This document shows, piece after piece, positions 408 through 17,663 of a stretch of DNA of 44,830 bases. Source of the DNA: Candidatus Thiodiazotropha sp. 'RUGA' (GTDB lineage: Bacteria; Pseudomonadota; Gammaproteobacteria; Chromatiales; Chromatiaceae); NCBI GenBank assembly GCA_016842065.1, contig JAEPDS010000032.1:1-44830 (forward strand), in the 5' to 3' direction. The stretch's first letter is position 1; each line of letters opens with the position of its first letter. The notes beneath the pieces were generated by a model, which saw only the letters and a program-made list of their open reading frames with translations, was not told where the DNA came from and searched no databases. A program made the translations under genes and the position numbers.

Positions 408-998
408 CTAGCTATCTCTACCACCAAGAAATGCCCGCCTGGTGATCTGCACGGGTTCAGCAACCACCGCCTCACCACTCTGTTGGTTGCTCTTGGCTTC
501 AGCCAGGGCAAAGCCATCCAGCTCCACTTCCACACGCTCTTCACCCCGCAGGATACGGCCTAACAGCGCCTCATCGTGGGGGTCCGTCTCGGGCTCCTCG
601 ACTTCAACCATCAGCGTTTTCATGAAGCTCTCCGCAGCCGCTACCGCATGTTCCTGATTCATGAACTCATGCATCGGAGAGTAGATTGGATGGGTCTGGC
701 AGAGGCCGATATCATCAATCTCATTGACCATGAAACGGTATTCGTTAGCCGGCAGACGATGGTACTGTTTATCACCCAGCTTCAGTTCACTCCAATCTTC
801 TCCCTCAGCCGGAAACAGCATCAGGTTCATCATCCAGGGTGTAATCAGAATGCCAATCAGACGCCCTTGGTAAGCTTGGAATCCTACGCTGGCCACCTGC
901 AAAGCGGGATTGAGAATGGGAATATCCTGCATCTGCTCCCGTTCGATGCGTTTAAAAACAGTCTCAATCTGCTGGGTCATACTGGATAGGTTTTGCAT
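408..998 (-). CDS. hybE: [NiFe]-hydrogenase assembly chaperone HybE
   Basis: A 196-residue soluble protein recognised as the HybE/HupJ family, which assists maturation and pairing of the hydrogenase subunits before Tat export. It is the last gene of the hyb operon, 21 bases after hypC, with a clear ribosome site (GGAGAG) just before its ATG. It is somewhat longer than the E. coli protein (about 160 residues); the extra length is an acidic C-terminal tail (residues about 135-196, ending RRAFLGGRDS). No catalytic residues are known for this family. The assignment rests on overall sequence recognition plus its place in the operon. No terminator was recognised after the stop; the repeat region follows directly. 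Confidence 0.88.
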   Translation of the reverse strand: MQNLSSMTQQIETVFKRIEREQMQDIPILNPALQVASVGFQAYQGRLIGILITPWMMNLMLFPAEGEDWSELKLGDKQYHRLPANEYRFMVNEIDDIGLCQTHPIYSPMHEFMNQEHAVAAAESFMKTLMVEVEEPETDPHDEALLGRILRGEERVEVELDGFALAEAKSNQQSGEAVVAEPVQITRRAFLGGRDS

Positions 999-1325: not shown

Positions 1326-1889
1326 TCAACCGGCAAGCCCGGCAGCCTGCTCATACTCGGCCTCTCTGCGCCAATGGCCGCTGGCTATGCTGCTTTTGGG
1401 AGCTAACTGAACACCCAGGCTCGACAGCTCTTCAACCAGCATGCTGACCATACCGCTCAAGCCCTGCTCTGCCTCGGCTGTCAGGCCCAACTGATTTTCC
1501 AGGGAGTGAGGTACCATACCGATGATCGATACCCGCTCCGGGGTCTCACCTTTCAGGGCCAGCAACGCCAGCAGATCGGAGACCCCCAGCTGGTGGTTGG
1601 AAAGCTTGGTCTGAAAAAAGGCGGGAATCTCATCATCTGCGATACGTACCAGACTGCCAGGTGCAGCACCGGTATTGACCGCATCCGCAATGATCAGATA
1701 GCGGGCCTTGCGCATCGGTTCGAACAGCTCCATGCCGGTGGTACCACCATCCACCACGTCGACACCTTGCGGTATCTGGTAGTGCTGCACCAGCTCTTCA
1801 ACCGCCCGCACACCGATCCCTTCATCCTGCATCAATACATTACCCATGCCGATCACCAGGACCTGTTTTTTTTCCAGCTCATTCATCAT
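1326..1889 (-). CDS. hybD: HybD-type hydrogenase maturation endopeptidase
   Basis: A 187-residue protease of the HybD/HyaD (M52) family. It removes the C-terminal peptide of the large subunit HybC once nickel is inserted. The N-terminal strand VLVIGMGNVLMQDEGIGVR carries the conserved GxGNxLxxDEG-x-G motif, whose acidic residue (E of DEG) is one of the nickel ligands; further conserved stretches are DGGTTG and the D of IIADAVN. I chose the paired ATG-ATG at 1889/1886, which sits 13 bases after hybC's stop behind a GGGAG site. The longer frame reading back into hybC has no support. The C-terminal 20 residues are rich in charged residues and look family-variable. Confidence 0.93.
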   Translation of the reverse strand: MMNELEKKQVLVIGMGNVLMQDEGIGVRAVEELVQHYQIPQGVDVVDGGTTGMELFEPMRKARYLIIADAVNTGAAPGSLVRIADDEIPAFFQTKLSNHQLGVSDLLALLALKGETPERVSIIGMVPHSLENQLGLTAEAEQGLSGMVSMLVEELSSLGVQLAPKSSIASGHWRREAEYEQAAGLAG

Positions 1890-1902: not shown

Positions 1903-3606
1903 TTATAGCGCCTTAACCCGCACGATCTCTTTCTGCTCCGTATCCACCATGTGGATTGCACAGGCAATACAGGGGTCGAAAGAGTGAACGGTACGCAATA
2001 CCTCAAGCGGTCTCTCCGGATCGGCGACCGGATTATCCATCAACGAGGATTCGTAAGGACCGATCTCATCATCGGCATCCCTCGGGCCCGCGTTCCAGGT
2101 ACTGGGTACCACTGCCTGATAGTTTTTAATCTTCGCATCCTCAATCACAACCCAGTGGGAGAGGGTACCGCGAGGCGCCTGGTGGAAGCCGACACCCTTG
2201 ATCTCACCTTTGGGAAAAACCGGCGCGTTGAAGGTATCCAGGTCACCGGTACCGATGTTATCCACCAGCTTCTGCCACTGATCGTTCAACACATCGATCA
2301 TCACGGCACAGCGCACCGCTCGTGCCGCATGACGGCCGATGGTGGAGTTGACCGCCGAGAGTGGAATATCCGGATTCTGGGAGACCGCCTTGAGGGTACC
2401 CATCGCTTGATCGAGATATTTTGTATAACCCGCATGACCACTCGCCACGCCCACCAGCACATCAGCCAGGGGGCCCACTTCTGCCCGCTTGCCATAGAAG
2501 GTAGGCGCCTTGACCCAGGAGTATTTGCCTTCATCCTGAAAGTCCGTGTACTCCGGCTCGGTCTCGCCCACCCAGGGGTGCAGGGCATCGCCGCCGCTAT
2601 ACCAGGCATGCTTGGAAGACTCGGCCACACCGTCACGGAAATAGGCGTCGCCGAAGGTGGTGATCGGCTTCAGGCTGTTGATGTCGCCGTTTTCGATATA
2701 ACCTCCAGGCAGATCGAAGATCGTACCTTTGGCATCCTGCGGACAGTCAGGCACCGTCAGGTAGTTGTTGACGCCACCGCCGACACCGGCCCAGTCCAGA
2801 TAGAAGGCACCCACTGCCGGCACATCCACCAGGTAGGTCGATTTGACGAAATGTTCCAACTTGTCGATGAAGCCTTTGATCAGCATCAGACGCTCGATAT
2901 TGAGCACCGATGGGGCATCATGGCTGATGGAGTTGCTTACACCACCCACCGCCACATTCTGTATATGCGGACTCTTGCCACCGAGAATGGCGACGATCTT
3001 GTTGGCGTTATTCTGTACATCCAGAGCCTGCAGATAGTGAGCCACCGCCAACAGATTCACTTCAGGCGGCAGCTTCATCGCAGGATGCCCCCAATACCCA
3101 CTGGCGAAAGGTCCGAGCTGCCCGCTGCCGACGAAGGTCTTCAGTCGCTCCTGTACCGCTTTCATCTCATGGGGGCCATTGAGAGGCCAGTCAGAGAGAC
3201 TCTCCGCCAACTTGGCGGTGGCCACCGGATCCGCATCCAGCGCCGAGACCACATCCACCCAGTCCACCGCTGAGAGGTGGTAGAAGTGGACAATGTGATC
3301 CTGAATCGCGTGAGCGGTCTGAATGATGTTGCGGATCAGCTGGGCATTCACCGGCACTTCCAGATCGAGGGCGTTCTCAACCGCCCGCACCGAGGTGATC
3401 GCATGCACCGTAGTACATACCCCACAGAACCTCTGAGTGTAAGTCCAGGCCTCGCGTGGATCACGACCTACCAGGATCTTCTCAATGCCGCGCCACATCT
3501 GACCGGAGGACCAGGCCTTACTGACCTTGCCGTCATCCACTTCCACATCGATACGCAGATGACCTTCGATACGGGTTATCGGGTCGACAGTAATACGTGT
3601 TGTCAC
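1903..3606 (-). CDS. hybC: [NiFe] hydrogenase large subunit HybC
   Basis: A 567-residue catalytic subunit binding the Ni-Fe(CN)2CO site in the periplasm. Both metal-binding motifs are intact: RFCGVC near residues 59-64 and DPCIACAIH near 544-552. The last histidine is followed by a 15-residue extension (MVD...VKAL), the peptide HybD is expected to cut. The N-terminus TTRITVDPITRIEGHLR is the usual family start. I place the start at GTG 3606 because AGGAG lies 8 bases upstream; a TTG two codons earlier would be only 3 bases from that site. It has no signal peptide and is co-exported with HybO by Tat. Gap to hybB is 21 bases. Confidence 0.97.
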   Translation of the reverse strand: MTTRITVDPITRIEGHLRIDVEVDDGKVSKAWSSGQMWRGIEKILVGRDPREAWTYTQRFCGVCTTVHAITSVRAVENALDLEVPVNAQLIRNIIQTAHAIQDHIVHFYHLSAVDWVDVVSALDADPVATAKLAESLSDWPLNGPHEMKAVQERLKTFVGSGQLGPFASGYWGHPAMKLPPEVNLLAVAHYLQALDVQNNANKIVAILGGKSPHIQNVAVGGVSNSISHDAPSVLNIERLMLIKGFIDKLEHFVKSTYLVDVPAVGAFYLDWAGVGGGVNNYLTVPDCPQDAKGTIFDLPGGYIENGDINSLKPITTFGDAYFRDGVAESSKHAWYSGGDALHPWVGETEPEYTDFQDEGKYSWVKAPTFYGKRAEVGPLADVLVGVASGHAGYTKYLDQAMGTLKAVSQNPDIPLSAVNSTIGRHAARAVRCAVMIDVLNDQWQKLVDNIGTGDLDTFNAPVFPKGEIKGVGFHQAPRGTLSHWVVIEDAKIKNYQAVVPSTWNAGPRDADDEIGPYESSLMDNPVADPERPLEVLRTVHSFDPCIACAIHMVDTEQKEIVRVKAL

Positions 3607-3627
3607 AATCAAATCTCCTAATCGGTA

Positions 3628-4767
3628 TTACGCAGTTTCTGCGTTATGAAGCACGGGGAATTTTTTCACGATGATCAGGTAGGCCATGATCTCTATGGCC
3701 ACCATACCGGCGGTTACCATGATCTCCGGAGTGGAGGGAAAGTAGCTGTAGCCCGGCCCCGGATCGTAGGTGATGAGAAACGCGTTGAAGCGATAGAGCG
3801 CCCCGGCAAACAGCATCGATACCGACGCCCAGAGCAGCAACGGACCATGTCCTCGTCGTTCTTCAGACATCAGCACCACCAGCGGAAAGACGAACAGTGC
3901 CGTCTCCAGGAGAAACATCAGACTGCCCAGGTCGCCGGCAAAAATCAGCCCCAGCTTACCGTTGACAATAACCTCACCAAAGCGCACCAGCAGATAGACA
4001 CTGATCAGTCCCATGATCGCCTTACCAAGCCCGGAAAGGATCGGAGTCTCATTGGGGCGACGGAAGCCGACACTACTGAAGGAGGCCTCAAACACCACCA
4101 CCGCAAAGCCCATGGTCAGAGCCGTGAGAATCGCCAGCAGGGGCTGCAGCTGTAACGACTGCCAGAGGGGATGCACCTTGTAACCCATGGCGATCAGCAT
4201 CGAACCCAGTGAGGACTGGTGCATGGTCGGCAGCAACACGCCCAGGGCGATGAAGAAAAACAGCACCTTGTTGAGCACCTTCAACACCCCTTGGGCGCCC
4301 ATCTTCTCCAGCAAGGCGGGAGCGAATTCAATACACAGCACCAGGATGTAGGTAGCGACGCAGAGTCCGACCTCCAGCATCACCGAATTGAAGTTCATGT
4401 GCCAGGGCGTGAAGATGTTGTAGAACTGCCACCAGCGTCCCATATCGATCATCGCACCGATTCCACCCAGGCCATAACCGAGCAGACTGGCCAGCAGCGC
4501 CGGCCGGATCAGCGGATGGTACTTACCCTTGTTCATCACATACACAGTGATCGCCAGGGCGTAGCCACCACAGGCCAGGGCGGTACCCACCACTACGTCG
4601 TAGACCACCCAGATACCCCAGGCATAACCGCCGTTGATATTGGTCACCGGCCCCATGCCATGGATGAAGCGCTGCACCAGATAGTAGGTGCCGATCAACG
4701 CCACCACACTCAATACCAAAAAAGGAAAGGTGATCACCGGCCGCTTCAGCGGTTGATAGGCACTCAT
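3628..4767 (-). CDS. hybB: HybB, integral membrane quinone-reducing subunit (NrfD/PsrC family)
   Basis: A 379-residue protein with about ten hydrophobic segments, the first at about residues 13-32 and the last at about 343-365. It is recognised as the HybB branch of the NrfD/PsrC family: it has no haem or cluster motifs and passes electrons from the HybA iron-sulfur chain to quinone, possibly moving protons. Its start overlaps the hybA stop by four bases (ATGA), with GGAGGT in front, so the two are translationally coupled. The presence of HybA plus HybB, instead of a cytochrome b subunit, marks a Hyb-type (hydrogenase-2 like) enzyme. Confidence 0.94.
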   Translation of the reverse strand: MSAYQPLKRPVITFPFLVLSVVALIGTYYLVQRFIHGMGPVTNINGGYAWGIWVVYDVVVGTALACGGYALAITVYVMNKGKYHPLIRPALLASLLGYGLGGIGAMIDMGRWWQFYNIFTPWHMNFNSVMLEVGLCVATYILVLCIEFAPALLEKMGAQGVLKVLNKVLFFFIALGVLLPTMHQSSLGSMLIAMGYKVHPLWQSLQLQPLLAILTALTMGFAVVVFEASFSSVGFRRPNETPILSGLGKAIMGLISVYLLVRFGEVIVNGKLGLIFAGDLGSLMFLLETALFVFPLVVLMSEERRGHGPLLLWASVSMLFAGALYRFNAFLITYDPGPGYSYFPSTPEIMVTAGMVAIEIMAYLIIVKKFPVLHNAETA

Positions 4768-5732
4768 GATTCACCTCCATCTTCATCTTCGGTGTTGCGA
4801 CGTACGATATAGGTGAGCCCGGCCAGCGCCGCCGCCGGCAGGGCCATATAGTTGTAGATCGTGTGCTGCACGGTCTCAGAGATCGAGGCGTAGGAGCGCT
4901 CCTCAAGTGGCGGCATACCCAGTTTTTCAAACGGGATGGATGAGACATGCAGGACATTGGTGCCACCCGCCTCCTTCTCACCCCAGATATGATTCTGATA
5001 AGCGGGCACGGCCTTCTCATGGTGACTTTCCGGTTTACGCACGTCCCCTCGGGGGTAGTTGTAGGTCTCACCGGGTTTCAGGGTCATGCGACGTTTCGCC
5101 TCCTCGAGCAGGGCCTCGCGGGATCCGAACAGGGTGGCGCCGGTTGGACAGACCTCGGCACAACCTGTCATCCCACCCTGGTCGATACGGGCAACCCCTT
5201 CCTGATTACACATCTGGCACTTGTGGATCTCGCCAAAGGGATTGTCGTAATCGAACTGGGGTACGTTATAGGGGCAGCCAACCATACAGGTGCGACAGCC
5301 GATACAGGCATCCGGATGATGAGTGACGATACCGGTCTTGGGATCACGGCGCATGGCGGTAACCGGACAGACCGAGACACAGCCCGGATCCACACAGTGC
5401 ATACAGCTGCGCTTCTCGAAGGCGAAACCGTTCTCTGCCGCATCCTTGATACTCGCGTCACCCTCCTGATAGACCTTGATCACATTCAGGGTCTCATGAG
5501 AGAGATCCCGGGCTGCATCCCAATAGGTCTCATCCTCTAACGGGGTGGCCGGCATACCATTGACCTCTTTGCATTTGCTCACACAAGCCTTGCAGCCGAT
5601 ACAGAGGGTCGAGTCGAACAGCATGCCGATCGCCTCTTCCGCCGGCTCCAGGTTGCCTCGACCCTGCGCAGCACCCGCACCCAACAGGGCGGCACCACCA
5701 AGGGAGGCCTTAAGAAAATCTCTGCGTTTCAT
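4764..5732 (-). CDS. hybA: HybA, four-cluster ferredoxin subunit with Tat signal
   Basis: A 322-residue periplasmic iron-sulfur protein that carries electrons from HybO to HybB. The N-terminus MKRRDFLKASLGGAALLG is a Tat signal with adjacent arginines at 3-4. Sixteen or so cysteines form the usual four [4Fe-4S] sets, for example CIGCKAC..C near residue 45, CMHCVDPGC..C near 110-121, CIGCRTC..C near 143-150 and CQMC..C..C near 172-196. A hydrophobic segment near 292-310 (YMALPAAALAGLTYIV) anchors the C-terminus in the membrane. It starts 11 bases after hybO behind a strong GGGGAGTAGGGGGA ribosome site that includes the hybO stop. Confidence 0.95.
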   Translation of the reverse strand: MKRRDFLKASLGGAALLGAGAAQGRGNLEPAEEAIGMLFDSTLCIGCKACVSKCKEVNGMPATPLEDETYWDAARDLSHETLNVIKVYQEGDASIKDAAENGFAFEKRSCMHCVDPGCVSVCPVTAMRRDPKTGIVTHHPDACIGCRTCMVGCPYNVPQFDYDNPFGEIHKCQMCNQEGVARIDQGGMTGCAEVCPTGATLFGSREALLEEAKRRMTLKPGETYNYPRGDVRKPESHHEKAVPAYQNHIWGEKEAGGTNVLHVSSIPFEKLGMPPLEERSYASISETVQHTIYNYMALPAAALAGLTYIVRRNTEDEDGGES

Positions 5733-5743
5733 GTCCGTTCCCC

Positions 5744-6868
5744 CTACTCCCCATCCGGCTCTTTTTTATCCAGCTTCTTTGACGCCATCGCGGTGGCACC
5801 CACCGCCAGACCGACGGCAGCTCCGGCAATCGCCGCTGCACTGGTAGAGACAGGTGTATTGCCTTCCCGGTCATCGATGGAGGGGAACATGTTGGGCGGG
5901 GTGTGGGTCTTCACATCCGCCAGACTGAACAGGGGTTTGCTGAAACCGACTCCCCCTTCGGAACAACCGAAACAGGGGTGACCCACACCGACCGGCCAGA
6001 CACCACCCCCCACATTGTTGAATTCCAGTGAGGGACAGTTGTTGTAGGTCTCGGGCCCCTTACAACCGAGTTTATAGAGACAGTAGCCTTTGCGATGTCC
6101 TTCATCGCCAAACTCCAGTGCAAAGCGCCCGGCATCGAAGTGGGGACGGCGATAACAGTTTTCATGGATCAACCGTCCATAGGCCCATTTAGGGCGCCCT
6201 TTTTCATCGATCGGCGGCAATTTGCCGTAGGTGACAAAGTAGAGCACGGTACCGATGAAGTTGGCCGGATTGGGCGGACAGCCGGGGATGGTCACTACGG
6301 TCTTCCCTTCCAGCAACTGGGGTGCGCCCACGGCCCCGGTGGGGTTGGGTGCTGCCGACTGAACCCCACCCCAACTGGCGCAGGAACCGAAGGCGACGAT
6401 CGCGGCAGCGTGTTCTGCCGCCTCATGGGTGATCTCCACCATGGTCTCACCGCCGATCTTGCAGAAGATCCCGTCGTTAGCCATGGGTATCGCACCCTCC
6501 ACCACCAGCAGGTATTTACCCTGGTTCTCTTTCATCACCTGCTTCTTGATATCTTCCACCTGATGGCCGGCGCCGGTATCGAGTGTCTGGTGGTAGTCGA
6601 GGGAGATCAGATCGAGAATCAGATGCTCCAGCGAGGGTTGCTCAGAGCGCAGCAGGGACTCACTGGGACCGGTACACTCCTGACCGTGCAACCAGATCAC
6701 TGGAGGGCGCCGCTTGGGATCCGCTACCGCTTCGGCCATCGCCATGGCAGCACCAGAGGGTAGCCCCAGAGAGGCCGCCACCCCACTGCAGAACTTGAGA
6801 AAAGTCCGGCGGGAAACACCGAGGCGTTTCTCCACTGCTGAAAAATCGAAATCGCTCTCTGCCATCAT
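5744..6868 (-). CDS. hybO: [NiFe] hydrogenase small subunit HybO (proximal Cys replaced by Pro)
   Basis: A 374-residue small subunit. It has a Tat signal with SRRTFLKF at 19-26, a cluster-binding region, and a C-terminal hydrophobic tail (about 345-365) that anchors it to the membrane. Distal and medial cluster ligands are all visible: HENC and RRPH, GYC..LGC, NNC, HPCFGC. Of the four proximal ligands, C65, the Cys of GSCASWGG and the Cys of PGCPPNP are present, but the motif reads ECTGPSES, with Pro68 where family members normally have Cys (ECTGCSES-type). The codon is CCC (6665-6667), at least two changes from a cysteine codon. It is the first gene of the operon; GGAG precedes the ATG-ATG start. 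Confidence 0.95.
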   Translation of the reverse strand: MMAESDFDFSAVEKRLGVSRRTFLKFCSGVAASLGLPSGAAMAMAEAVADPKRRPPVIWLHGQECTGPSESLLRSEQPSLEHLILDLISLDYHQTLDTGAGHQVEDIKKQVMKENQGKYLLVVEGAIPMANDGIFCKIGGETMVEITHEAAEHAAAIVAFGSCASWGGVQSAAPNPTGAVGAPQLLEGKTVVTIPGCPPNPANFIGTVLYFVTYGKLPPIDEKGRPKWAYGRLIHENCYRRPHFDAGRFALEFGDEGHRKGYCLYKLGCKGPETYNNCPSLEFNNVGGGVWPVGVGHPCFGCSEGGVGFSKPLFSLADVKTHTPPNMFPSIDDREGNTPVSTSAAAIAGAAVGLAVGATAMASKKLDKKEPDGE

Positions 6869-7391: not shown

Positions 7392-8468
7392 ATGAAGAAC
7401 ACAGAAAAATCCCTCATCCAACAGATGAGGATCACTGACTTCGAGATCACCAATCGCAAAAGGCTGTTTGCCATCTCCCAGACAGATGCAGAGCATCTCA
7501 AGCAGGCCAAGCCCTACATCGAGAATGAACTGAACACCATTGTAGAAACTTTCTACAAACTCCAGACAGAGGTGCCCGATATCGCACTACTGATTGGAGA
7601 TGCCGACACATTGAGCAGACTGCACAATGCACAGAAGGCCTATATCTCCGATCTTTTTTCCGGCTTTTATGACATCAAGTATGTGAATAACCGTCTGCGT
7701 ATCGGCATGGTCCACAAGCGTATCGGTGTGGAGCCAAAACTCTACCTGGCTGCCGTTCTGACTCTGAAGCAGTTACTCATCACACATATCAGAAAGTCAA
7801 TACCTGACGAAATCAATCCGGAGCGCATAATAGAAGCACTCGAAAAGTTGCTGATGCTGGACGTTTCACTGGTATTTGACACTTACATCCGCAGCCTGAT
7901 CTCTGAAATTGAGATCGCCAAAGATCGATCGGAACAGTATGCCAGTGCGCTAGAGGAGAAGGTCAGAGAGCGCACCAGGCAACTCGAGATGCTGTCAAGA
8001 ACCGATCCGCTGACCGGGCTATTGAACAGGCAGCATTTCGATGAAATATTGAGCCAGGCACTGCGTGCCGCACAACGACGCAATGAGCCACTTACCGTCG
8101 CCTATGTCGATATCAATGACTTCAAACTCATCAATGACACACAGGGCCACCGACAGGGAGACGAGATACTTCAAAGAGTCGCCAACAGCCTGAAGATCAG
8201 CAGCCGGACCGATGATTTCTGCTTTCGCTATGGTGGTGATGAGTTTTGCATCATCATGCCGAACTGCGTAAGACAGGAAGCCAGTAATGCCTGGGCGAAA
8301 CGACTGCATGAAACATTGGCAAAACAGACAGACAATCCCAAGTTGAGTATCGGCTATGCTCAGACCGGTCCAGACAAATATATAACCACTGAGCATCTGC
8401 TTCAAATGGCCGACGAAGAGATGTATCGGGTCAAGAAACTGGCCAAAAACCACTCGAAAAAGATCTAA
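7392..8468 (+). CDS. Globin-coupled sensor diguanylate cyclase
   Basis: A 358-residue cytoplasmic protein. Residues about 10-165 form a sensor globin of the HemAT/DosC type: His108 in MVHKRIGVEPKLYL is the expected proximal haem ligand, so O2 is the likely input. A helical linker (about 166-200) leads to a GGDEF domain (about 203-358) with an intact active site, RYGGDEF (G281-F285), and an inhibitory c-di-GMP site RxxD at 272-275. It should therefore make c-di-GMP in an oxygen-dependent way with product feedback. It is divergent from the hydrogenase operon. The start ATG lacks a strong ribosome site (GGACTC only). It is a single gene with about 580 bases before the next. Confidence 0.93.
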   Translation: MKNTEKSLIQQMRITDFEITNRKRLFAISQTDAEHLKQAKPYIENELNTIVETFYKLQTEVPDIALLIGDADTLSRLHNAQKAYISDLFSGFYDIKYVNNRLRIGMVHKRIGVEPKLYLAAVLTLKQLLITHIRKSIPDEINPERIIEALEKLLMLDVSLVFDTYIRSLISEIEIAKDRSEQYASALEEKVRERTRQLEMLSRTDPLTGLLNRQHFDEILSQALRAAQRRNEPLTVAYVDINDFKLINDTQGHRQGDEILQRVANSLKISSRTDDFCFRYGGDEFCIIMPNCVRQEASNAWAKRLHETLAKQTDNPKLSIGYAQTGPDKYITTEHLLQMADEEMYRVKKLAKNHSKKI

Positions 8469-15677: not shown

Positions 15678-17663
15678 TTACTTAAACAGCTTGGACTTGT
15701 CGACGAGGTCGATATGCGCACGCTTGAAACACTTGTAGCTCTTACTCTCTTTGTCATAGATGGAGTTGACGAAGCACTTCCAGTTCTCTTCGTCGACAAA
15801 GTTCTTATCCATGCGGTAGTAGAAACCGGGATAGCGGGTCTCCTCACGGAACTGAATGTGTTTCATATGAGCTTCAGCAGTCAGGATTCGATGATAGTTC
15901 TCCCAGGCACGCAGCAGCTCGTGGAGGTCCTTCGCACGCATCTTGAGCGCATCTTCTTTCAGCATCTCCAGCTTCTGTTCAGCCAGGCCGAGCATCTGCT
16001 CGTTGGTGGCGTAGTAGGTGGAAATACCGGCAACATACTCATCCATAATCTTCTGCAGACGAAACTGCAACATGCGAGGGGTGATGTAGTTGGGATTGAC
16101 GTCGATCGCCGTGCTGTAGTCCTTGTACTCAAGGTAGTTACGTACCGGACGGTAGATCTCTTCGATCAGGCTATCGACGTCGCTATCCAGCTCAGGATTG
16201 AACGCCTTGTTGTCCATGACGTATTTGACCATCGCCTTGGCAGCCAGTCGGCCTTCAGCGTGTGATCCGGAAGAGAACTTGTGACCGGAAGCACCCACCC
16301 CGTCACCGGCGGTAAACAGACCGGAAACGGTGGTCATACCACGGTAGCCCCAATGCCAACCCTTGGGCAGGTGATCCGGTACGCCGCTTTCGGTCTCGTC
16401 TGTCGGCGCACCCACATCCTCAGGGCCGGAGGTCCAGATTCCGCAGCAGCCGGCGTGAGAACCGAGCAGGTAGGGTTCGGTGGGCATCAGCTCGGAGTTC
16501 TTCTTTTCAGGCTCGATATTCTCACCGGCCCAGATCCCGCATTGGCTGACGGACATGTCGAGAAAGTCTTCCCAGGCTTCAGCCTCCAGATACTTGACCT
16601 CGCGAGGAGAGAGGGTCTCGCTGAGATTTCCCAGTGCGGTTATGGTATCCATCCAAATCGGACCCCGACCTTCGCGCAGCTCTTTCAACAAAAGGTGGTT
16701 ACGTAGGCAGGAAGCGGGAACAGCGGCATTTCCATAAGGCGGATAGTCGTCCAGCATCTCCTTGTTGCGGTCCATGTAGTCCTCACCAAAAGCATTGGTG
16801 GCTTTCGCTTTGAACAACATGAACCAGGCACCGACAGGTCCGTAGCCGTCTTTGAAGCGGGTCGGTACGAAGCGATTTTCCATCATGGTCAGCTCAGCCC
16901 CGGCCTCCGCAGCCATGGCATAGGTGGAGCCGGCATTCCATACCGGGTACCAGGCACGACCCTGCCCCTCTGCTACGGAGCGCGGACGGAAGATACTTAC
17001 ACAACCGCCGGCGGCCAGAAGGATGGCTTTAGCCTTGAAAATATAGAGTTTGTTCTCACGAACGGAGAAACCGACCGCACCGGCGATGCGATTCTTATCG
17101 TTTTTGTCGTTAATCAGTTTAACGATGAAGATATGCTCTTGGATATTTTCCATACCCAAGGCTTTCTTCGCCGACTCGGCAACGATCCACTTGTAGGACT
17201 CGCCGTTGATCATGATCTGCCACTTGCCGGAGCGTACGGGTTTACCACCGTCTTTCAGAAGCGTCATCCCTTTCGAGCCGTCGTGGCGCTCCCCTCTCTC
17301 GTCCGTCTTCCAGATCGGCAGACCCCACTCTTCAAACAGATGTACGGATTCGTCAACATGGCGGCCCAGATCATAGGTCAGATCGTCGCGGGTGATGCCC
17401 ATCAGATCGTTGGAGACCATTCGGGCATAGTCAGCAGGATCCTGATCAGGGCCGATGTAGGTATTGATTGCGGCGAGACCCTGAGCAACCGCACCGGAGC
17501 GATCCAGAGCCGCCTTGTCGACCAGCTTGACTTTGATGTCGCCGCCGGCTGCTTGCACCCAGGGAACAATTTCATAGGCTGCGCCACAACAGGCCATACC
17601 GCCGCCGATCAGGAGGATGTCCACCTCTTCGGTGACAACTTGCGGATTTCCGAATTCAGCCAT
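15678..17663 (-). CDS. aprA: Adenylylsulfate reductase, alpha subunit
   Basis: A 661-residue flavoprotein of the fumarate-reductase/succinate-dehydrogenase flavoprotein fold. With AprB it interconverts sulfite plus AMP and APS; in this type of organism it is expected to run in the sulfite-oxidising direction. The FAD-binding N-terminus VDILLIGGGMACCGAAYE is near residues 13-30. Substrate-pocket stretches typical of AprA follow, such as ENRFVPTRFKDGYGPVGAW (near 263-281) and AGCCGIW, then the helical C-terminal domain. It lies 51 bases after aprB on the same strand. Length fits the family (about 620-665). The electron partner (Qmo or AprM) is not in this window. Confidence 0.97.
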   Translation of the reverse strand: MAEFGNPQVVTEEVDILLIGGGMACCGAAYEIVPWVQAAGGDIKVKLVDKAALDRSGAVAQGLAAINTYIGPDQDPADYARMVSNDLMGITRDDLTYDLGRHVDESVHLFEEWGLPIWKTDERGERHDGSKGMTLLKDGGKPVRSGKWQIMINGESYKWIVAESAKKALGMENIQEHIFIVKLINDKNDKNRIAGAVGFSVRENKLYIFKAKAILLAAGGCVSIFRPRSVAEGQGRAWYPVWNAGSTYAMAAEAGAELTMMENRFVPTRFKDGYGPVGAWFMLFKAKATNAFGEDYMDRNKEMLDDYPPYGNAAVPASCLRNHLLLKELREGRGPIWMDTITALGNLSETLSPREVKYLEAEAWEDFLDMSVSQCGIWAGENIEPEKKNSELMPTEPYLLGSHAGCCGIWTSGPEDVGAPTDETESGVPDHLPKGWHWGYRGMTTVSGLFTAGDGVGASGHKFSSGSHAEGRLAAKAMVKYVMDNKAFNPELDSDVDSLIEEIYRPVRNYLEYKDYSTAIDVNPNYITPRMLQFRLQKIMDEYVAGISTYYATNEQMLGLAEQKLEMLKEDALKMRAKDLHELLRAWENYHRILTAEAHMKHIQFREETRYPGFYYRMDKNFVDEENWKCFVNSIYDKESKSYKCFKRAHIDLVDKSKLFK

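Follow-up and report, generated by a model that had tools for sequence, protein, structure and literature searches.

What becomes of the proximal iron-sulfur cluster of a [NiFe] hydrogenase when proline takes the place of one of its cysteine ligands is the question raised by the hyb operon of Candidatus Thiodiazotropha sp. 'RUGA', which lies in a stretch of 44,830 nucleotides of contig JAEPDS010000032.1 (hereafter the window). Two natural designs of this cluster are well studied. The proximal cluster is described as governing both the O2 tolerance and the overpotential of [NiFe] hydrogenases (PMC4747160), and a conserved third design with partner residues in both subunits would offer a natural experiment on how the cluster controls catalytic direction and O2 response.

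The hyb operon and the cluster ligands of HybO

The hybO gene (5744..6868, minus strand) encodes a [NiFe] hydrogenase small subunit of 374 amino acids (TIGR00391, 476.9 bits against a cut-off of 179.5), has no internal stops and, by eye, specifies a Tat-like SRRTFLK signal and a hydrophobic C-terminal stretch. It is the first gene of an operon with the order hybO-A-B-C-D-E, which is that of the Hyd-2 type. The other genes, all on the minus strand, encode the ferredoxin-like Fe-S subunit HybA (4764..5732; NF008134, 468.5 bits, cut-off 263), the membrane subunit HybB (3628..4767; NF008133, 521.9 bits, cut-off 450), the [NiFe] large subunit HybC (1903..3612; PF00374, 719.6 bits), the maturation protease HybD (1326..1889; TIGR00140, 152.0 bits, cut-off 151.8) and the assembly chaperone HybE (408..998; TIGR03993, 147.2 bits, cut-off 78.5). 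The active-site motifs RxCGxC and DPCxxC are present in HybC as RFCGVC and DPCIAC, and the curated Hyd-2 equivalog cut-offs are missed by both HybO (497.5 versus 659 bits) and HybC (855.2 versus 969 bits). The genome (4.77 Mb in 177 contigs) also contains hypF, above its cut-off, and three further small subunits, one with the motif CTCC (L002), one with CTGC (L003) and one distant (L004).

Two other genes of the window deserve mention. A Protoglobin-GGDEF protein (Pfam), of the gas-sensing diguanylate cyclase type, is encoded at 7392-8468 on the plus strand, divergently from the hyb operon; among the loci examined, many of which have short flanks, its strong homologues (above 550 bits) are found next to hybO solely in the nearest relatives (L001, L005-L007, L085, L086 and L122). 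A gene of sulfur metabolism, aprA, encoding the alpha subunit of adenylyl-sulfate reductase, is located at 15678-17663 on the minus strand (TIGR02061, 911.4 bits).

The proline is residue 68 of HybO, encoded by CCC at 6665..6667 on the minus strand (GGG on the plus strand), within the motif ECTGPSES; Pro68 sits in WLHGQECTGPSESLL. In phmmer comparisons with the PDB it is a gap-free match to the second cysteine of ECTGCTES in the Hyd-2 small subunits 5xvb (E = 6.7e-128) and 6ehq, and E. coli K-12 HybO (L114) likewise reads ECTGCTES, its second cysteine occupying the place of Pro68, which supports the assignment of this site, made in a sequence-only reading of the same DNA, as the second proximal-cluster ligand. 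The first, third and fourth proximal ligands are kept, according to the sequence and the relatives' alignment, as Cys65 (6674..6676), Cys163 (6380..6382) and Cys197 (6278..6280), all on the minus strand. The distal positions H235, C238, C263 and C269 and the medial positions C278, P292, C299 and C302 are all present as well. These 11 positions are invariant in all 104 distinct Hyb-type small subunits compared, so that a proline in place of one cysteine, with the remaining cluster ligands intact, is confirmed.

Within HybO, no replacement cysteine has been gained in the 60 proteins with Pro or Asn at this site, except in two single-row cases (columns 18 and 165). Cys136 and the signal-peptide Cys27 were considered as replacement ligands and rejected, given that both occur in Cys-type proteins too.

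Distribution and origin of the Pro form

Relatives were collected by scanning GTDB species genomes with peptide patterns from the window's HybO, none of which included site 68, and the best 80 of 145 relatives were kept. Among 104 distinct Hyb-type small subunits (identical sequences collapsed, hits below 400 bits or without motif coverage excluded), site 68 is Pro in 59, Cys in 44 and Asn in one, the Pro proteins forming one clade, so the conservation that had been proposed as a check on the proline is borne out. A close copy (at least 90% identity) is present in 17 of 21 genomes of the same genus, without exception with the motif ECTGPSE. Across the class, 6 of 369 genomes, counting that of the window, contain the pattern QECTGP[ST]E. 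In a sample of 398 genomes of the phylum, 44 have a match at E <= 1e-80, and among 12 places besides the window with at least 53% identity and E < 1e-130 three carry Pro and nine Cys. In the plasmid collection the best match reaches 60.1% identity, and two of the 126 matching records were examined (L155, Azospirillum; L156, Aeromonas), both of which read CTGC.

Members of the Pro clade belong to the alpha-, beta- and gammaproteobacteria, including Thiodiazotropha, Candidatus Sedimenticola endophacoides and Magnetovibrio blakemorei MV-1, besides Rhodocyclaceae, Comamonadaceae and Rhodospirillales MAGs; MAGs make up the majority of the named members. The nearest named record is from the symbiont of the lucinid Stewartia floridana, with a HybO 98% identical, and Candidatus Thiodiazotropha endoloripes has a HybO of 97% identity. 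The operon is also conserved: among labelled Pro loci in which at least four genes were found, the order is OABCDE in 35, OABCD in four and OABC in three, and two have extra mixed hits. In genome G431 a CxGP and a CxGC hydrogenase of the Hyb type occur together (L157 and L158), a natural pair for comparison. The sole clade member seen with Asn (AAC) instead of Pro, L054 (6001-7140), has the residue of N. punctiforme HupS at this position and keeps Gln94.

A tree of 97 small subunits, for which column 68 itself was among the 379 columns kept, unites all Pro proteins in a single clade of 57 rows (54 with Pro, one with Asn and two partial loci, L056 and L058, in which part or all of the motif is missing) with support of 100/98, and puts a Cys protein, L105, beside it with weak support (91/37). 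On this tree a single origin is shown by parsimony: one change from Cys to Pro, followed in L054 by one to Asn, would suffice. The second proximal-cluster cysteine would then have been replaced by proline once and kept thereafter.

Residues linked to Pro68 in HybO and HybC

The residue most tightly associated with Pro68 is Gln94 (codon CAG, 6587..6589, minus strand), at a position that tracks the type of proximal cluster, being Glu in most CxGC relatives and Asp in most CxCC enzymes. Of the 104 distinct small subunits, 59 combine Pro68 with Gln94, 44 have Cys with Glu and one has Asn with Gln; that is, Gln94 is found in 60/60 Pro/Asn proteins versus 0/44 Cys proteins. In a wider set of 130 small subunits (hits below 200 bits or without motif coverage left out), whose rows are related and do not represent independent events, residue 94 is Gln in 60/60 CxGP proteins and in the single CxGN protein, Glu in 50 of 53 CxGC proteins (His in three) and Asp in 15 of 16 CxCC proteins (Ala in one). 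Judged from this distribution, position 94 shows the behavior expected of a determinant of the type of proximal cluster. In a poor AlphaFold model (mean pLDDT 60.1), strands 56-61 and 89-93 immediately precede the CTGP loop and Gln94, respectively, but strand 89-93 has a pLDDT below 50 and no argument is based on it. A role of Gln94 in a proton path, as the counterpart of Glu46 of the D. gigas small subunit, was not adopted, since the passage on Glu46 leaves the subunit unnamed (PMC3325256).

Other positions of HybO differ by type. Residue 202, five after the ligand Cys197, is Ala in 58 of 60 CxGP, Glu in 16/16 CxCC and Tyr in 38 of 53 CxGC proteins, and at residue 22, within the Tat motif RRxF, Thr is present in 54 of the 60 proteins of the clade, the commonest residue in the Cys type being Asp (23/44). 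At H77Q, Y202A, F228W, E239Y and D285N, the deepest Pro lineages L104 and L106 have the old residue at all five sites, which is not so in the other 58 Pro/Asn rows, indicating that these five replacements came later.

The large subunit carries a corresponding set of changes, as seen in 77 HybC rows (52 of the Pro/Asn type and 25 of the Cys type, seven of the latter gapped at positions 54 and 62). Phe62, the x of the RxCGxC motif adjoining an active-site Cys, is present in 52/52 Pro/Asn-type versus 1/25 Cys-type rows (17 Ile, 7 gapped), and the same comparison gives 52/52 versus 1/25 for Leu92, 52/52 versus 0/25 for Gln98, 51/52 (His in L055) versus 0/25 for Gln104, 52/52 versus 1/25 for Arg376 and 49/52 versus 1/25 for Asp512. 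The HybC changes are present in both deepest Pro lineages (L116 and L117) and absent from the Cys sister (L115), so that, given that placement, they date from the part of the tree on which Pro68 also appeared. In the motif HxHxxHxxHxH the first His is replaced by Gln104; because the T. roseopersicina H102A enzyme retains 64.5% of its in vitro activity in evolution and 67.7% in uptake (PMC3325256), this change alone need not matter. The proline that the sequence-only reading had singled out is real, but far from being peculiar to this one enzyme it characterizes a whole clade, in which both subunits carry linked changes.

The proximal cluster predicted for the Pro clade

Proline has no side chain able to bind iron, asparagine can coordinate, and ordinary [NiFe] hydrogenases have a [3Fe-4S] medial cluster held by three cysteines. 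The medial site of those enzymes has Pro in the fourth place, an arrangement found here at the proximal site. E. coli Hyd-1 P242C turns the medial 3Fe4S cluster into 4Fe4S (PMC4747160), and P292, in the place of Hyd-1 P242, is invariant in the 104 distinct small subunits. Because Pro in the fourth ligand place goes with [3Fe-4S] at the medial site, a [3Fe-4S] cluster is to be expected at the proximal site, most likely held by C65, C163 and C197, and two [3Fe-4S] clusters, proximal and medial, would lie in a row. Pro68 is most economically read as altering the proximal cluster, and this suggestion of the sequence-only reading gains support from the finding that the change is real and conserved.

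A proximal [3Fe-4S] cluster could act as a high-potential first acceptor and thereby bias the enzyme toward H2 oxidation into the quinone pool, and Gln94, together with HybC Phe62, Leu92, Gln98, Gln104 and Arg376, may retune the surroundings of the cluster. Our main reading, to which we give a probability of roughly 0.55, is that these proteins constitute a clade of working, membrane-bound hydrogenases of the Hyd-2 type (HybOABCDE) with a putative three-Cys [3Fe-4S] proximal cluster, perhaps biased to H2 oxidation. The predicted direction is the weakest step of the explanation: engineering of the proximal cluster in an uptake hydrogenase of N. punctiforme is said to have let electrons flow in reverse, toward the [NiFe] site (PMC5297734), which speaks against an oxidation bias. 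The broader proposal, to which we would give even odds, is that CxGP represents a third natural class of proximal cluster beside CxGC [4Fe-4S] and CxCC [4Fe-3S], namely a three-Cys [3Fe-4S] cluster next to the [3Fe-4S] medial one, specified by Pro68, Gln94 and the set of HybC residues; such a class, spread over alpha-, beta- and gammaproteobacteria, would have a catalytic direction and an O2 response of its own.

That the proline stems from an error of sequencing, assembly or reading frame in a single codon is hardly credible, since independent genomes repeat it with different codons (CCC in 32, CCG in 10, CCA in eight and CCT in seven of 58 distinct genes, the remaining one having AAC for Asn). 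A neutral change or a decaying gene might be imagined because three more small subunits in the window's genome make redundancy conceivable, but it is very improbable in view of dN/dS values of 0.022-0.114 in ten pairs within the clade (rough in seven pairs with dS >1, near saturation), of the four codons that specify one residue, of the intact operon and of the linked residues in two subunits. The Pro68 variant is real and conserved and, by all signs, functional, being neither sequencing error nor decay. A proximal cluster that is absent or labile, in an enzyme that is slow or serves as a sensor and not as a respiratory uptake hydrogenase, would agree with the loss of one ligand; it is improbable given that the three other cysteines are invariant and that HybA and HybB are kept.

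A weightier alternative, possible though in our view doubtful, is that the cluster is still [4Fe-4S], its fourth iron bound by a non-cysteine or foreign ligand, such as HybC His216, Gln94, hydroxide or water, a backbone atom or a gained HybC Cys290. An expressed small subunit with unusual ligands, presumably N. punctiforme HupS, is pertinent here. Its clusters are reported as verified 4Fe4S (PMC4070099), so that losing the second cysteine alone is no proof of [3Fe-4S], and L054, the clade member with Asn, counts against the [3Fe-4S] reading. HybC His216, corresponding to Hyd-2 His214, could take the free iron site, as it is invariant in 77/77 rows and the NE2 of the equivalent His of Salmonella Hyd-5 lies 3.3-3.5 A from a proximal-cluster Fe (PMC3940037), but it is equally invariant in Cys-type enzymes. 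Gln94 accompanies Pro68, but a Gln ligand is speculation. Cys290 was gained in 42 of 46 clade rows, both deepest lineages included, versus 0 of 23 Cys-type rows (eight rows fewer than in the labelled set of 52 and 25); it was nevertheless rejected as a required replacement ligand, being Phe in four rows that keep Pro68 (L011, L012, L019 and L038). Against all variants of a [4Fe-4S] cluster stand the inability of proline to coordinate and its association with [3Fe-4S] at the medial site; we favor the three-Cys [3Fe-4S] cluster.

Comparison with known enzymes sets this clade apart. E. coli Hyd-2 (HybOABC) shares the OABC order, the subunit families and 11 of the 12 cluster positions, but has the four-Cys CxxC where CTGP, with Pro at proximal position 2, is found here, and differs at Gln94 and HybC Phe62, Gln98 and Gln104. 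The O2-tolerant Hyd-1/MBH enzymes (six-Cys [4Fe-3S]) likewise depart from the standard proximal cluster and have a residue of their own at position 94 (Asp in 15/16), whereas the present enzyme lacks CxCC, has Gly67 and Gly168 where L002 has Cys at both, and has Gln at HybC 60, by motif position the place of Hyd-1 Glu73. A six-Cys O2-tolerant cluster was accordingly rejected, the supernumerary-Cys motif being absent (CTGP) and HybC 60 being Gln.

Cyanobacterial HupS offers another comparison, and its engineered variant C12P reportedly gives a [3Fe-4S] cluster. This Cys-to-Pro exchange at an Fe-S cluster of the N. punctiforme uptake hydrogenase is on record (PMC9919214), in line with the sequence-only reading; it is engineered, however, and offers an analogy to Pro68 without being an identical substitution: HupS already has Asn at position 2, so Cys12 has to be a different ligand, judging by its number most likely that of position 1. 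The Asn that the same reading had placed near the site is, in Table 1 of PMC4070099, exactly at it in N. punctiforme, and the same ligand position is thus altered naturally in HupS and in the window, by Asn there and by Pro here, with Asn in only 1 of 104 relatives (L054). HupS further differs at the distal His, which is Gln there, and at the medial Pro, which is Lys (PMC4070099, same table), whereas the Pro clade has both ordinary residues.

The natural ligand changes at proximal position 2 that PMC4070099 draws from GenBank are Asp (Geobacter) and Asn (Nostoc punctiforme), Pro not being listed there. In a crude assay with whole cells, H2 was still produced by the C81D and C81N variants of an engineered hydrogenase of Alteromonas macleodii G1, which by their numbering concern the place of Pro68. 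Thiodiazotropha papers mention uptake hydrogenases, without the Pro feature in the parts available (PMC11171427, PMC6872982), and a search of the open-licence PMC literature, as far as its texts were available, found no report of a natural Pro at proximal position 2, nor any spectroscopy of a clade member, which is no proof of absence; the CxGP clade is undescribed within the open-licence literature searched. The linked residues provide a short list of point changes for the tractable E. coli Hyd-2, and the clade matters for the use of H2 in lucinid symbionts and in other proteobacteria, where a family search would label these enzymes merely Hyd-2-like.

The distant small subunit of the window's genome (L004, 1312-2337, minus strand; motif SGGCGGCTLS) lies directly after an ORF that by eye resembles a PAS/histidine kinase, and the two resemble an H2-sensor pair. 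Small subunits similar to it occur in loci L026, L034, L042 and L047, all with CxGP operons.
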